Origin: Nitrospira sp.
GTDB taxonomy: Bacteria; Nitrospirota; Nitrospiria; Nitrospirales; Nitrospiraceae
DNA length: 64,000 nucleotides
Assembly: GCA_018242725.1 (NCBI GenBank)
Contig: JAFEBI010000012.1
Span: forward strand, 1 to 64,000
Direction of reading: 5' to 3'
A program made the translations under genes and the position numbers. The notes beneath the pieces are model-generated. The model did no database searches. It saw only the letters and a program-made list of their open reading frames with translations, and was not told where the DNA came from. Below are positions 33,726 to 41,840 of the stretch, piece after piece. The stretch's first letter is position 1. Every line of letters begins with the position of its first letter.

Positions 33726-34922
33726 ATGGGGTTGGGCGACGGGTTTTATCGGATCAAGCGATTGCCGCCGTATGTCTTCGCGCAGGTTCAAGCACTGAAG
33801 CTGGAAGCACGGCAACGGGGTGAAGACATCATCGATTTTGGTATGGGGAATCCCGATCAGCCTACCCCCACGCACATTATCGAGAAGATGATCGAAGCCG
33901 CACGTAAAGGGAAGAATCATCGCTACTCCGCATCGCGAGGGATCACCAAGCTTCGGCACGCCATTTGCGGGTGGTACAAACGAAACTATAATGTCGATCT
34001 CGACCCGGAGACGGAAGCGATCGTCACGATCGGATCAAAAGAAGGCCTCGCGCACCTCGCTCTGGCCATCATCGGTCCCGGCGACGTGGTCATGACTCCC
34101 ACGCCGACCTATCCTATTCATATGTACAGCTTCATCATTGCCGGCGGTGAAGTTTGCGGCATAGAGCTTCGCCAGGACAGCGATTTCTTTGAAGATCTCA
34201 CTCGCGTCTATCGGCAAACTTTCCCGCGACCCAAGATCCTGGTCATCAATTTTCCGCACAACCCCACGACGGCGGTGGCTGATCTTGGATTTTTCAAGAA
34301 GATCGTGGCGTTTGCCAAGGAACACAATGTCATCGTCATCCATGACCTCGCCTATGCCGATCTGGTCTTTGACGGGTATAAGGCCCCAAGTTTTCTCCAG
34401 GTTCCAGGAGCGAAAGATTGTGGGGTGGAGTTTTATACCCTATCGAAAGCCTACAACATGCCGGGTTGGCGCGTCGGCTTCTGTGTCGGTAATCGAGAAG
34501 TCGTCGGTGCATTGGCGAAGATCAAGAGCTATCTCGATTACGGTATTTTCCAACCACTTCAAATTGCCAGCGTGATCGCACTGAACGGCCCACAGGATTG
34601 TGTCAAAGAAACTGTGCATCGATATCAGAAACGTCGTGATGTGCTGGTGGGCGGGCTGAACCGAATCGGGTGGCAAGTCGCGAAGCCGTTGGCGACGATG
34701 TTCGTATGGGCACGCATTCCATTGCCGTATCGCCACATGGGGTCGTTGGAGTTTTCGAAACTTCTCCTCAAAGAAGCCAAAGTCGCAGTTTCGCCGGGGA
34801 TCGGATTCGGTGAAGGGGGCGATGAGTACGTGCGATTTGGACTCGTCGAGAACGAACATCGTACGCGACAAGCGGTGCGCGGGATCCGCAAAACCCTCAA
34901 GCTTGAGGGAGGTGAGGAATGA
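33726..34922 (+). CDS. alaC: Alanine/glutamate-type aminotransferase, AlaC-like
   Basis: A 398-residue fold-type I aminotransferase that aligns well with E. coli AlaC (YfdZ): [65 protein letters not shown] and the Lys motif [16 protein letters not shown]. AlaC makes alanine from pyruvate and glutamate; LL-diaminopimelate aminotransferases are related and cannot be fully excluded, which matters because lysC is in the same operon. ATG at 33726 follows AAAGGA. The stop overlaps the hom start (ATGA), showing operon organisation. Confidence 0.82.
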
Positions 34923-36232
34923 AGTCCCAGATCGGAGTGGGGATCATCGGGTTTGGGACCGTCGGCACCGGGGTTGCCAAGACACTGCTCAACAATGCCG
35001 ATCTCATCCGCCGCCGAGTCGGCGTGCCGATCGAATTGGTTCGCGTGGCAGACCTGGACATTGTCAAGGACCGTGGGGTGACGGTGGCTCCAGGGGTCCT
35101 CACGACCGATGCGAAGCAAGTCCTGGCGGATCCCGATATCGATATCGTGATCGAACTGATCGGCGGGTACGACACAGCGAAGCGGATCATATTGGAAGCC
35201 ATCGCCGCCGGAAAGCATGTGGTCACGGCGAACAAGGCGCTCTTAGCGTTGCACGGGGAAGAAATCTTTGCTGCTGCAACCCGGAAGGGTGTGGAGTTGG
35301 GGTTCGAGGCCAGCGTGGGTGGTGGAATCCCCGTGCTTCGAGCGTTGACGGAAGGGCTCGCAGGCAATACCATCGAGTCCGTTTACGGGATCATCAATGG
35401 GACATCCAACTATATCTTGTCGAGAATGACCCAAGAAGGGCACGACTTTCAGGCGGTGCTCACGGACGCCCAGCAGGCGGGCTATGCGGAAGCGGATCCG
35501 ACGTTTGATGTCGCCGGAGTCGACTCTGCGCACAAACTCGCCATTCTCGTGAGTCTTGCCTATGGTACTCCCGTCAACTTCAAGGACATTTATACGGAAG
35601 GGATCACGAACATCACGCCGACCGATATCGCATACGCCAAACAGTTCGGCTGCACGATTAAGTTGCTGGGCATCGCGAAGTATGTGAACGGAGAAATCGA
35701 AGCGCGGGTGCATCCCACAATGCTTCCGTCCACCTCTCCCATTGCACAAGTTGAAGATGTGTACAATGCCATCCAACTCGTCGGCGATGCCGTCGGCGAT
35801 GTCGTCCTTTATGGGCGTGGGGCCGGATCCATGCCGACCGGGAGCGCGGTGGTCAGCGACGTGATTGCCACCGGACGCAATATTCTCAAAGGTGCGATCG
35901 GCCGGGTGCCGGTTGCCTCGTTTCAGCAAGACCATCGGCGACCGTTACGGCTTCGGGCCATGGAAGAGATTAGTTCACTCTACTATCTCCGGTTTACCGT
36001 GGTGGACCGGCCTGGAGTCTTGGCGCAGATTGCGGGTGAACTCGGGCGCTGCGGGATCAGCATCTCCTCGATGGTTCAACAGGGGCGTCGTGAGGGGCAG
36101 ACCGTGCCGGTCGTCATTAAGACTCACATGGCCAAAGAACGTGACGTGCAAACCGCGCTTCGCGAAATCAACCGGCAAGCATTCGTGGCTGAACCGACGA
36201 GACTGATTCGGGTGGAAGGCAAAGATGAGTAA
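34919..36232 (+). CDS. hom: Homoserine dehydrogenase
   Basis: A 437-residue monofunctional enzyme reducing aspartate semialdehyde to homoserine. Rossmann motif [17 protein letters not shown] at residues 6-22; catalytic domain with [44 protein letters not shown] and [15 protein letters not shown]; a C-terminal ACT domain (about 350-430, [18 protein letters not shown]) that usually binds threonine for feedback inhibition. ATG at 34919 overlaps the alaC stop. thrC begins 4 bases after. Confidence 0.95.
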
Positions 36233-36235
36233 CCG

Positions 36236-37294
36236 ATGAATCGTTGGCGAGGGATCATAGAGGAGTACCGTAAGTTCCTCCCTGTTACCGAAAAGACACC
36301 CATCATTAGTTTGGGGGAGGGGAATACTCCGTTGATTCGGGCTGCGCGATTGGCGAAAGCCATTGCGCCGGGGATTGAACTCTATCTCAAGTTTGAGGGT
36401 GTCAATCCTACCGGTTCGTTTAAGGACCGTGGGATGACCTTTGCCATCTCGAAGGCCGTCGAGGCCGGCGCACGCGCCGTCATGTGCGCGTCGACGGGGA
36501 ATACGTCAGCTTCCGCCGCCGCCTATGGAGCTCGAGCCGGATTGTCGGTGTACGTGTTGATTCCAGCCGGTAAGATCGCCATGGGCAAGTTGTCTCAAGC
36601 CATGATGCATCAGGCCACGGTCATTCAGATTGAAGGAAACTTTGATCAGGCCCTCACCCTCGTCAAAGACCTATCGGCCTCACTTCATATCGAACTCGTG
36701 AATTCCGTGAATCCGTACAGGATTGAAGGGCAGAAAACCGCGGCCTTTGAGGTCTGCGATCAGCTCGGCGATGCTCCTGCCTTCCACGTCTTGCCGGTGG
36801 GGAATGCAGGAAATATCACGGCGTATTGGAAAGGCTATACGGAGTATCGCGCCGCCAGTCAGATCACACGACTGCCTCGCATGATGGGATTTCAAGCGGC
36901 AGGTGCGGCTCCCATCGTATTGGGGAAGGTCGTTGAACAGCCACAAACCGTTGCGACCGCTATTCGGATCGGCAATCCAGCGAGTTGGTCCTCGGCCTTG
37001 AAAGCTGTGGAGGAGTCATCCGGCGCGATCGATATGGTGACAGACGACGAGATTCTTCAGGCCTATACGTTGGTCGCTGCCACGGAAGGAGTCTTTTGTG
37101 AGCCGGCTTCGGCTGCCTCGGTGGCTGGCGTGGCCAAACTCCATCGTACCAAGGCTCTACGGGAAGGTGACGCGGTGGTCTGTACTCTGACAGGACATGG
37201 GTTGAAGGATGCCGATACGGCTATCTCCGTGTCAAAACAACCACTCACTGTCAAGGCGACGCGAGAGGATGTCGTCAGACTATTGAACGTGTGA
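36236..37294 (+). CDS. thrC: Threonine synthase
   Basis: A 352-residue fold-type II PLP enzyme converting O-phosphohomoserine to threonine. The PLP lysine is Lys63 in NPTGSFKDRGMT; CASTGNTSASAAAYGARAG follows and LPVGNAGNITAYWKGY is the phosphate-binding loop. Length and motifs fit the short (class II) ThrC. Start ATG at 36236, 4 bases after hom. The substrate must be made by a homoserine kinase, yet no recognisable thrB is in the window; the next gene is the candidate replacement. Confidence 0.94.
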   Translation: MNRWRGIIEEYRKFLPVTEKTPIISLGEGNTPLIRAARLAKAIAPGIELYLKFEGVNPTGSFKDRGMTFAISKAVEAGARAVMCASTGNTSASAAAYGARAGLSVYVLIPAGKIAMGKLSQAMMHQATVIQIEGNFDQALTLVKDLSASLHIELVNSVNPYRIEGQKTAAFEVCDQLGDAPAFHVLPVGNAGNITAYWKGYTEYRAASQITRLPRMMGFQAAGAAPIVLGKVVEQPQTVATAIRIGNPASWSSALKAVEESSGAIDMVTDDEILQAYTLVAATEGVFCEPASAASVAGVAKLHRTKALREGDAVVCTLTGHGLKDADTAISVSKQPLTVKATREDVVRLLNV

Positions 37295-37310: not shown

Positions 37311-38519
37311 ATGAAATATGTGATCGTGCATGCTGGCGGGATGGCGGACCATCCACAAGCAGAACTCAATGGCCGAACCCCACTGCAAGCGGCAGCCACT
37401 CCCCATCTCGATCAGCTCGCTCAAATCGGAGAACTCGGGCAACTGATGATTCCAAACGAGGGGATTCGTCATGGAGGCGGATTGCTCGGTGCAGCGATCC
37501 TCGGCTATGACCCGAAGAAATACTATCAAGGTCCTGGGCCTCTGGAAGCCGCAAGTTTGGGCGTCTCGGTGACGGAACACGACGTGGTTTATCGCTGCAC
37601 GATGGTCACCTTGCGTTCTGATGGTGGAAAGGGCGCGGAGATTAAGAAGTTGGGGCCGAATGTCATCATGGACGATGCGACAGCCGGTTTGATCGAGACC
37701 GAAGAGGCTCGTGAATTGCTTGAGGCGATCAATGAGCAACTCGGTTCCGAAACTATTCAGTTTTATCCGGGCGCCGGTCATCGCCATCTCATGGTCTGGG
37801 TCAATGGTAAGCCGCGAGCGCTCTGTCACGATCCGCAATCCGTCCTTGGTCGATCCATCGCGGATGCTTTGCCTACGGGGGACGGCGCGGACATCCTTCG
37901 CAAGCTCATGGATGCGGCGCATGTGATCATGCGCGATCATCCGGTCAACGATGAACGGATGGCCGAGGGGAAGAAAGCGGCAAATTGTGTCTGGCTGTGG
38001 GGTGAGGGACGAGCCGTCATGTGGCCGAGCCTGACCGAAAAGTACGACATCGCCGGGGCCATAGTGGCGACCAGCGATGTCTATCGCGGCGTCGGGATCT
38101 GCGCGGGACTTGCGGCAGTCGATACCGAACAACTCGCCGACGGAGATCTTCGCACCAGAGCCGCTGTGGCGCTCGCCGAATTCGCCAAGAAGGATTTTGT
38201 GTATGTTCACGCCAGACTGACGGATGAGATCATCCACGGCACCGATATCAAAGCGAAAGTGCACGGCGTCGAAGAGTTCGATCGTCATCTGGTTGGTCCG
38301 CTCGTTGAGGGGCTGGCCAAACAAGGACCCTTTCGGTTCATGGTCGTGTGCGAGCACGGACGAGGAGTCAATGGTCAACCCTTTTATGCGTTCGGCGAGG
38401 GAGCCAAGCAAGCTGGTGGATCAGCTGGTCGTCGCTTCACCGAGGTGGATGCTCAGGCCGCAGGGATGCCCGCCCGTGACGCGACGAAGTTCGTGAATAA
38501 GTTCTTCTCCAAAAGCTGA
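37311..38519 (+). CDS. ApgM-like protein in the threonine operon, catalytic residues altered
   Basis: A 402-residue alkaline-phosphatase-superfamily protein of the archaeal-type phosphoglycerate mutase family: [40 protein letters not shown] and [11 protein letters not shown] are clear. Relatives lying next to hom/thrC have been proposed as homoserine kinases. Here the N-terminal GDGMAD motif reads AGGMAD (metal Asp to Gly9), the loop that should hold the nucleophilic Ser (GSD) reads HGGGLLG (residues 54-60), and the later D-H pair is E348-H349. The D-E-x-x-H-x-x-D triad (305-312) remains. It may be a pseudoenzyme or have a new activity. It lies 16 bases after thrC. Confidence 0.8.
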
Positions 38520-38524
38520 CCATC

Positions 38525-39748
38525 GTGGCACTCATCGTTCAGAAATACGGCGGCACGTCGGTCGGAACGATCGAGCGTATCCGACGGGTGGCCGATCGTG
38601 TCGAGAAAACGCAGCGAGACGGCCATCAAGTCGTCGTCGTGCTCTCCGCGATGAGCGGTGAAACAGATCGCCTCATTAAACTCGCCCACGAAGTGACCGC
38701 GACTCCGGATGATCGGGAGATGGATATGCTGCTCTCCACCGGCGAGCGCGTCACCATTGCGTTGTTGGCGATGGAATTACGTGGCAGAGGTGTTGACGCA
38801 CGCTCGTTTACAGGTCGACAGGTGGGTATCATGACCGACAGTGCCCATACCAAGGCACGGATCGCGCGCGTGACGTCCGGACGGCTTCGCGAGGCTCTGG
38901 ATCAAGGAGTCGTGCCCGTGGTGGCGGGCTTTCAAGGTATCAACGAACGGTCCGATGTGACGACGCTGGGCCGAGGTGGGTCCGATCTTTCCGCCGTTGC
39001 GGTGGCGGCGGCGCTCAAAGCCGATCGCTGCATTATCTTTACCGATGTCGACGGGGTCTATACCGCCGACCCCAATATTGTCCCGGCAGCGAAACGCATC
39101 GACAAGATTTCCTATGAAGAGATGCTCGAAATGGCCAGTCTTGGCGCCAAAGTCCTGCAGACTCGATCGGTGGAATTCGCGGCCAAGTTCAATGTACCGG
39201 TCGAAGTGAATTCCAGCTTCAAAGAAGGAAAGGGAACGCTCGTGACAAAGGAAGATCCGGATATGGAAGCGGCGGCGGTTGCCGGAGTCACGGGTGACCG
39301 GAACCAGGCAAAGATCACGATCATCGGTGTCCCGGATAAGCCGGGCATTGCCGCCCGGATCTTCGGACCTGTGGCCGAGGCCAATATCAATGTCGATATG
39401 ATCATTCAGAACATCAGCCAAGCAGCCCTGACGGATCTCTCCTTTACCGTCCCACGGGCGGATCTCAAAAAAGCCGTGCCTCTCATCCAAGGCGTGGCGA
39501 AGGACATCGAGGCCAAGTCAGTCTCCGTTACCGAAGCCATTGCAAAAGTTTCGCTCATCGGTGTCGGCATGCGGTCGCATTCCGGCGTAGCAGCCAAGAT
39601 GTTCAACGTGTTGTCGCACGAGGGGGTCAACATCATGATGATCAGCACGTCGGAGATCAAAATCTCTTGCGTGATCGATGAGAAGTACCTCGAACTGGCC
39701 ATGCGCTCGCTCCACTCGGCGTTCGGGCTGGATCAAGTTCAGTCCTGA
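38525..39748 (+). CDS. lysC: Aspartate kinase
   Basis: A 407-residue aspartokinase, the first enzyme of lysine, threonine and methionine synthesis. Kinase part: [40 protein letters not shown] and [16 protein letters not shown]. Two C-terminal ACT domains (about 265-400) include [20 protein letters not shown] and [15 protein letters not shown], which would bind lysine and/or threonine. Start is GTG at 38525, 5 bases after the apgM-like gene, so coexpressed with hom and thrC. Confidence 0.95.
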
Positions 39749-40190: not shown

Positions 40191-41840
40191 ATGGCTAGAA
40201 ATACCAAACAATCACGTACTTCCCGCGCTGCCCGTGAACAGGCTCCGGTTGCTGTTCAAAGTCCGTCCGCCGAGCAGGCGGCGAAATTAGAAATCTATGA
40301 CACCACGCTGCGTGACGGCGCGCAGGCGGAGGATGTCAGTTTTTCAGCGGAAGACAAGGTTCTGATCGCGCAGAAGTTGGATAGTCTGGGCGTGCATTTT
40401 ATTGAAGGTGGATGGCCCGGCGCGAATCCAAAAGACATTGAATTTTTCCGGATGATCAAGACGATTCCGCTGAAACATGCGGACGTCATCGCGTTCGGGT
40501 CGACAAGGAAAGCCAGCAATACGGTTCGCAAGGATCCGAATCTGCAGGCCTTACTCGGCGCGGACACCAAGATTATTACGCTCTTTGGGAAGACCTGGTC
40601 GTTTCATGTCACCGATGCGCTCGGTATCTCCCTCCACAAAAATCTTGAGTTGATCGGTGACTCCATCGGCTATCTCCGAGGGAAGGGACGCCGTGTCTTC
40701 TACGATGCAGAGCATTTCTTCGACGGCTATAAGACCAACCCGGACTATGCCTTGAAGACGATCAGGAAGGCGGTCGAGGCCGGTGCGGAGCGAGTGATTC
40801 TTTGTGATACCAACGGGGGCACGATGCCGTGGGAAATCCGTGAGATCTGCGGCGTGGTGCAGCAGGAGTGTGGGGTGCCGCTCGGTATCCACGCGCATAA
40901 CGATTGTGAAATGGCCGTGGCGAACTCCCTTGTGGCGATCGAGATGGGTATTCAGCAGGTACAGGGGACGATCAATGGAATCGGGGAACGCTGTGGAAAC
41001 GCCAACCTCTGCTCCATTATTCCGAATCTCGAGCTGAAAATGAAACGCCAGGCCCTGAGCAATACCCTGAGTCATCTCAAGGATGTATCCGGATTCGTCA
41101 CGGAGATCGCCAATCTGATGCCTAATAAGCATCAGCCCTATGTCGGAGATTCCGCGTTCGCCCATAAAGGCGGAGTGCATATTCACGCGGTACTGAAGAA
41201 CTCGGCGACCTATGAGCACATCGATCCGGCCCGCGTCGGCAATCGGCAGCGGATGTTGATCTCCGACTATGGCGGACGGAGCGGTCTGCTCGACAAAATC
41301 GAAGCCTACGGGATCATGCTTTCGAAAAACCACGCGAAGGTTGATGAGCTGATCCATACCTTGAAGGAACGAGAAAGCCAGGGTTATCAATTCGAAGGGG
41401 CCGAGGGCTCCTTTGAATTGCTGATGCGAAAGGCGATGGGAAGTCACACGTCATCATTTCGATTGCTGGGGTTTCGCGTGATCGTCGAGAAGAAACAGGA
41501 GGATGGATCCCTGCTTTCCGAAGCGACGGTGATGGTCAAGGTTGGGGATGCGGTTGAGCACACGGCGGCGGTTGGAGCGGGGCCGGTAAATGCGCTGGAT
41601 CATGCGTTGCGCAAAGCCTTGGAAAAGTTCTATCCGCAGCTTCGAGAGGTGAAACTCCTCGACTATAAAGTCCGGGTGCTGGCAGCGAATCGGGGGACGG
41701 AATCAAAAGTGCGTGTCTTAATCGAGTCTGGCGACCACAAAGACACATGGGGAACGGTGGGGGTCTCTGAAAATATCATTGAAGCGACGTGGCAAGCTCT
41801 CGTCGATAGCATCGAATATAAGCTGCTGTCCAAAAACTAG
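40191..41840 (+). CDS. cimA: (R)-citramalate synthase
   Basis: A 549-residue member of the DRE-TIM metallolyase family. After a 30-residue polar N-terminal extension come LEIYDTTLRDGAQAEDVSF, FIEGGWPGANPKD, ILCDTNGGTMPWEI, IHAHNDCEMAVANSL (metal His), and GTINGIGERCGNANLCSII; the C-terminal regulatory domain (about 400-545) is the LeuA dimerisation type. The GWPGANPKD form matches CimA rather than isopropylmalate synthase. It condenses pyruvate and acetyl-CoA and starts the threonine-independent isoleucine route, using leuCD downstream. Confidence 0.9.
   Translation: MARNTKQSRTSRAAREQAPVAVQSPSAEQAAKLEIYDTTLRDGAQAEDVSFSAEDKVLIAQKLDSLGVHFIEGGWPGANPKDIEFFRMIKTIPLKHADVIAFGSTRKASNTVRKDPNLQALLGADTKIITLFGKTWSFHVTDALGISLHKNLELIGDSIGYLRGKGRRVFYDAEHFFDGYKTNPDYALKTIRKAVEAGAERVILCDTNGGTMPWEIREICGVVQQECGVPLGIHAHNDCEMAVANSLVAIEMGIQQVQGTINGIGERCGNANLCSIIPNLELKMKRQALSNTLSHLKDVSGFVTEIANLMPNKHQPYVGDSAFAHKGGVHIHAVLKNSATYEHIDPARVGNRQRMLISDYGGRSGLLDKIEAYGIMLSKNHAKVDELIHTLKERESQGYQFEGAEGSFELLMRKAMGSHTSSFRLLGFRVIVEKKQEDGSLLSEATVMVKVGDAVEHTAAVGAGPVNALDHALRKALEKFYPQLREVKLLDYKVRVLAANRGTESKVRVLIESGDHKDTWGTVGVSENIIEATWQALVDSIEYKLLSKN

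Follow-up and report, generated by a model that had tools for sequence, protein, structure and literature searches.

The window, i.e., the whole stretch of 64,000 nucleotides of Nitrospira sp. DNA analysed here, carries on its forward strand the tight gene cluster aminotransferase-hom-thrC-apgM-lysC, followed by cimA, in which an open reading frame of 402 aa with an ATG start encodes an ApgM-like product. The genes, together with the evidence for each of them, are the following:

33726..34922, + strand: aminotransferase, first gene of the cluster, overlapping hom (open reading frame; conserved order in relatives)
34919..36232, + strand: hom, homoserine dehydrogenase (NF004976, 547.7 bits)
36236..37294, + strand: thrC, threonine synthase (TIGR00260, 322.7 bits)
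37311..38519, + strand: ApgM-like/TIGR02535-like protein of 402 aa, presumably catalytically dead (NCBIfam matches, AlphaFold2 model, PDB fold matches)
38525..39748, + strand: lysC, aspartate kinase (NF005155, 641.6 bits)
40191..41840, + strand: cimA, citramalate synthase, next downstream (TIGR00977, 746.7 bits)

The end of thrC is separated by 16 bases from the ApgM-like gene, which is followed after 5 bases by lysC. This placement between thrC and lysC, pointed out in a preliminary description of the DNA, is borne out by the coordinates of the reading frames and by the profile matches, and the order aminotransferase-hom-thrC-apgM-lysC has been found fixed in the relatives' contigs examined. 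Linkage to threonine synthesis genes, one of the marks of the proposed homoserine kinase family TIGR02535, is seen for the window gene and its relatives alike (hom-thrC-apgM-lysC).

Regarding its family, the window protein scores 327.5 bits against TIGR00306 (apgM subfamily), just above the cut-off of 320, and remains below the cut-offs of TIGR02535 (318.1 vs. 446.3 bits) and PRK04200 (325.5 vs. 426); in the profile search of Nitrospirota genomes, no ApgM-like match from the Nitrospirales exceeds the TIGR02535 cut-off. The fold prediction that had been proposed in the preliminary description has yielded a confident model of the ApgM fold (AlphaFold2, 43 sequences, pLDDT 90.9, pTM 0.89), whose best PDB matches are the archaeal-type cofactor-independent phosphoglycerate mutases 3kd8, 3idd, and 2zkt (Foldseek E 1e-26 to 3kd8, TM-score 0.71 to 2zkt_B). 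For TIGR02535 the reference is BT2402 of Bacteroides thetaiotaomicron, which has been predicted as ThrB2 from gene context (PMC9026213), and whose zinc sites are fully conserved, with D9 as the Asp equivalent to the first position considered below (PMC9765024). The window protein resembles this family in fold, length, the thrC-apgM-lysC slot of the relatives and the absence of thrB, but differs in its lower score and in lacking the nucleophile and most of the metal ligands. With the archaeal-type mutases of TIGR00306 it shares the fold, the cap domain and the broad subfamily cut-off, whereas the Ser nucleophile, Asp9 and the last His are absent, and both the operon context and a separate GpmA speak against a mutase function.

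Archaeal-type phosphoglycerate mutases employ a Ser nucleophile within a G-S-D loop and metal-binding Asp and His residues, and for the iPGM of B. stearothermophilus we take the reference residues to be D12, S62, D403, H407, D444, H445, and H462. Residue roles have been assigned from the alignment with relatives and 2zkt, from published work on BT2402 (PMC9765024) and from general iPGM knowledge, metal-site geometry being judged from the alignment only. The corresponding sites in the window are:

37335..37337, + strand: codon of Gly9, which replaces a metal-ligand Asp (alignment; equivalent to D9 in BT2402, PMC9765024)
37473..37481, + strand: codons of Gly55-Gly56-Gly57, which replace the G-S-D nucleophile loop (alignment)
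38223..38237, + strand: codons of D305 to H309, with two remaining metal-1-type ligands (alignment)
38352..38357, + strand: codons of E348-H349, which replace the D-H pair (alignment); a deletion further downstream removes the last metal-site His

The alterations at Gly9, Gly55-57, and E348-H349 that had been read by eye in the preliminary description are all present as given there, and the alignment places them at catalytic positions: Gly9 corresponds to the metal-ligand Asp, Gly56 to the nucleophilic Ser, Gly57 to the loop Asp and Glu348 to the Asp of the D-H pair. A further loss had been overlooked, as the last metal-site His, found in the 'THTxDPVP' motif of the relatives, lies inside a deletion. 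D305, H309, and H349 remain, so that the two-metal site that marks TIGR02535 is incomplete (D9 is G, D348 is E, the last His is deleted). The motif D305-E-x-x-H309-x-x-D312, previously regarded as remaining, holds for the ligand positions D305 and H309; D312 is not a ligand position, because it varies among D, N, S, and E in intact relatives. A shifted Ser or Thr nucleophile next to an intact metal site has been looked for in the alignment and not found: residues 55-57 are G-G-G, the loop contains neither Ser nor Thr, and the Ser nucleophile expected of TIGR02535 is missing. Across 40 relatives with intact sites, drawn from other classes and phyla, conservation of D9, G55, S56, D57, D305, H309, D348, and H349 reaches 95% or more, so that the pattern of residue loss is not due to chance. 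The window protein is very probably no longer a metal-dependent phosphotransferase.

These losses also weigh against the reading that the protein is the cell's phosphoglycerate mutase and its linkage to threonine genes accidental. The passing of the broad TIGR00306 cut-off and the absence of GpmI from those genomes of the window's genus that were searched would agree with such a role, but the iPGM mechanism requires precisely the nucleophile and metal ligands that are missing, the gene is kept in the hom-thrC-lysC slot throughout, and a search of the same genome for other pgm genes, as had been suggested beforehand, has revealed a clear GpmA-type dPGM (G000:C3:190803-191384; TIGR01258 274 bits, cut-off 81.7). 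The role of the cell's working mutase, which the preliminary description named, in combination with a canonical thrB, as a result that would overturn its claim, is rejected on the grounds of this GpmA, and the reading as a whole is extremely improbable. Family f2 (L032, L033, and further genomes) has a canonical GpmI, and the type of mutase may differ between f2 and the window's family.

Among the Nitrospiraceae copies examined, every one lacks some of the eight positions, and the missing subset varies. The window's clade is characterised by G9/G56/G57/E348, the rest of its genus group by G9 and G57 with S56 either kept or not, and L068, the nearest relative outside the window clade, retains S56 and D348. 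The N. defluvii group has Pro instead of H349 and keeps D9, S56, and D57, with six of the eight positions present, and in the N. lenta group Tyr replaces H309 and Ser or other residues replace H349. Family f2 shows D348 changed to Asn, with Ser, Gly, or Thr at position 56 (six or seven of eight present), and f3 has lost nearly all eight. With the ligand columns excluded from its construction, a maximum-likelihood tree requires a minimum of 15 changes at S56, 10 at H349, 8 each at D9 and H309, 6 at D57, 5 at D348, and 2 each at D305 and the last His. The catalytic residues have thus been lost by repeated independent changes in the Nitrospiraceae copies. Ligand losses extend through the whole of the window's order, including the nitrite-oxidising Nitrospira, in contrast to the intact sites outside it. 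Not every copy need be dead, given the six of eight positions in the N. defluvii group and the six or seven in f2.

The gene itself is missing or disrupted in places. Three genera of the window's order (g3, g4, g8) have the hom-thrC-lysC-cimA operon and no apgM-like gene, and in G082 the slot between intact thrC and lysC is occupied by a pseudogene with in-frame stops and a frame change. Two tested genomes of the window's own genus also have no apgM-like gene; as a close thrC match is missing there too, the operon is probably missing from these two assemblies. Outside the window's order, a genome that has ThrB (G258, locus L196) shows a separate degeneration in the same slot, with N9 and P309 as substitutions and loss of the last His.

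In order to find the source of O-phosphohomoserine, the genomes have been searched for other enzymes of this step. The preliminary description had seen no thrB in the window, and this holds genome-wide: canonical ThrB above cut-off is absent from the profile search of 98 relatives, the one weak match in the own genome is IspE, and no APH-type ThrB (TIGR00938) exceeds its cut-off. A canonical thrB, one half of the second result that would have contradicted the earlier claim, has therefore not been found. A second shikimate-kinase-like enzyme, for which the homoserine kinase DvMF_0971 of Desulfovibrio is the model (PMC5764234), has been considered and rejected, as the own genome has only one shikimate kinase. 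In contrast to these absences, all 16 Nitrospirales genomes tested have a ThrH (TIGR02137) above cut-off. In the window's own genome, which is one of the 16, it is encoded on another contig (G000:C13:14263-14850; 292 bits, cut-off 223.4; NF010109, 303 bits) and is 59% identical to the characterised ThrH of P. aeruginosa (PDB 1rku). The latter acts as a phosphoserine phosphatase and, in addition, as a phosphotransferase from phosphoserine to homoserine (PMC1079889). The ThrH of the window's genome, a protein of an unrelated HAD-type fold, is the probable functional replacement, and it is likely that ThrH supplies O-phosphohomoserine in these cells, although it may serve there as phosphoserine phosphatase only. 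The missing homoserine kinase implied beforehand is accordingly real with respect to thrB, and the gap is probably filled by ThrH from outside the window. Our literature search has retrieved no paper naming both Nitrospira and ThrH.

Across 245 Nitrospirota genomes, TIGR02535 is found above cut-off in 117, ThrB in 36 and ThrH in 76 (75 above cut-off, the remaining one truncated at the end of its contig); all three are lacking from 18 genomes. Two genomes combine TIGR02535 with ThrB, and ThrH co-occurs with neither TIGR02535 nor ThrB in any genome. Intact TIGR02535, ThrB, and ThrH thus exclude one another almost exactly, in a profile that amounts to few independent events, and to very few for TIGR02535 against ThrH, because the distributions are mostly clade-wide. 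ThrH coincides with the window's order, in which every ApgM-like match falls below the TIGR02535 cut-off. The reduced Nitrospiraceae genome G246 (1.7 Mb) has an ApgM-like gene below cut-off and no ThrH match, the sole such case in the order among the sampled genomes.

The decay of the TIGR02535 site in genomes with ThrH makes this distribution indirect evidence that intact TIGR02535 proteins make O-phosphohomoserine. It bears on a further reading, according to which neither the canonical-looking copies nor the window protein have ever been homoserine kinases. BT2402 fits this in that it is required for growth without threonine and nevertheless fails to rescue a thrB mutant of E. coli (PMC7311316). 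However, all 30 copies read among the TIGR02535 loci above cut-off keep the complete metal site, with all eight positions intact, and ThrB and ThrH are for the most part not found alongside the family, as would be expected for one interchangeable step; the reading is very unlikely. In related bacteria, the gene's product probably carries out a step of threonine synthesis.

In spite of the lost catalytic residues, the protein is kept. The dN/dS of the apgM-like gene (0.05-0.18), compared with 0.02-0.10 for hom, thrC, and lysC, indicates purifying but weaker selection, and the full-length open frames are 67-94% identical across the window's genus. The constraint is strongest in one region:

37563..38030, + strand: cap (PhosphMutase, PF10143) region, taken as residues 85-240 (Pfam match residues 37-213; lower dN; kept residues)

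In five of six comparisons, dN of this region is lower than that of the core. The cap residues D91, D122, R158, W163, N213, R216, N225, W228, and W230 are kept in nearly all copies, and they are joined by family-specific invariant replacements, e.g., N97T, Y157H, P174D, and S226C. Such conserved residues and invariant replacements suggest a new, constrained role that would be non-catalytic. One may alternatively regard the gene as a decaying relic without function on its way to loss, as its faster evolution relative to the operon neighbours, its absence in g3, g4, and g8 and the pseudogene of G082 would allow. The low dN/dS, the intact frames, the invariant cap residues specific to the family and the confident fold speak against this, and we consider it unlikely.

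The same conservation could be claimed for an enzyme that is still the cell's homoserine kinase and works by an altered mechanism, such as phosphoryl transfer that bypasses a Ser intermediate and relies on a single metal at D305/H309/E348/H349, or metal-free chemistry in the cap domain. The operon slot and the family, the absence of thrB, the low dN/dS, the retention of the putative ligand residues R158, N213, R216, and N225 and the D305/H309/D348/H349 set, mostly kept in the window's genus, are all compatible with it. The retained copies, however, have no residual metal site in common: f3 lacks D305 and H309, the N. defluvii group lacks H349, and the N. lenta group lacks both H309 and H349. 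Moreover, g3, g4, and g8 manage without the gene, and ThrH is available. An altered-mechanism kinase is therefore rather unlikely, and it is decidedly doubtful that homoserine phosphorylation persists without the alkaline-phosphatase metal site by having moved into the conserved cap domain, which, if true, would constitute a new type of phosphotransferase.

Taken together, the protein is probably a former homoserine kinase that has turned non-catalytic and been retained as a ligand-binding or regulatory protein, O-phosphohomoserine being supplied by ThrH. Of the two possibilities offered in the preliminary description, an altered mechanism or a pseudoenzyme regulating the pathway, the pseudoenzyme has become much the better supported, because the lost residues differ by lineage, because sister genera that share the operon either lack the gene or have a broken copy of it, and because ThrH is present; the altered mechanism has been weakened. 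The regulatory part, drawn from retention, purifying selection, and the conservation of the cap domain, is less firm, and a binding or regulatory function has only a slight edge in our judgement. The ancestor would have been a metal-dependent, Ser-nucleophile phosphotransferase of TIGR02535, with its gene between thrC and lysC, the slot seen phylum-wide in relatives. ThrH may have become available to the ancestor of the Nitrospirales and could have formed O-phosphohomoserine with phosphoserine and homoserine as substrates. The old catalytic site would then have come under relaxed selection; Ser and metal ligands have been lost repeatedly, some genera have deleted the gene, and one genome carries it in broken form. 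The Nitrospira lineage has kept the protein under purifying selection, strongest in the cap domain, most likely as a folded, non-catalytic member of the threonine pathway that might, for example, bind a pathway phospho-metabolite and modulate Hom, ThrC, or LysC.

That ThrB, TIGR02535, and ThrH, which are unrelated, substitute for each other within one phylum amounts to a natural experiment on the missing homoserine kinase, a gap of long standing. It points to ThrH as the candidate source of O-phosphohomoserine for Nitrospira and to proteins of the window type as candidate pathway pseudoenzymes with a fixed place in the operon. Such genes are probably misannotated when they are called phosphoglycerate mutase or homoserine kinase.

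Outside the threonine operon, the f3 genome G091 encodes a second, very divergent ApgM-like protein (L049:7000-8239; 431 aa, 25% identical), in which the D-H and H-S-x-D-P-V-P motifs are kept. Several genomes of the order also have a second, divergent ThrC-like protein of roughly 413-425 aa, which shares 37-39% identity with the operon ThrC and is likewise encoded outside the operon (L160, G063:C1:886375-903379; G001:C278:36276-37298; G026:C124:683-1693).
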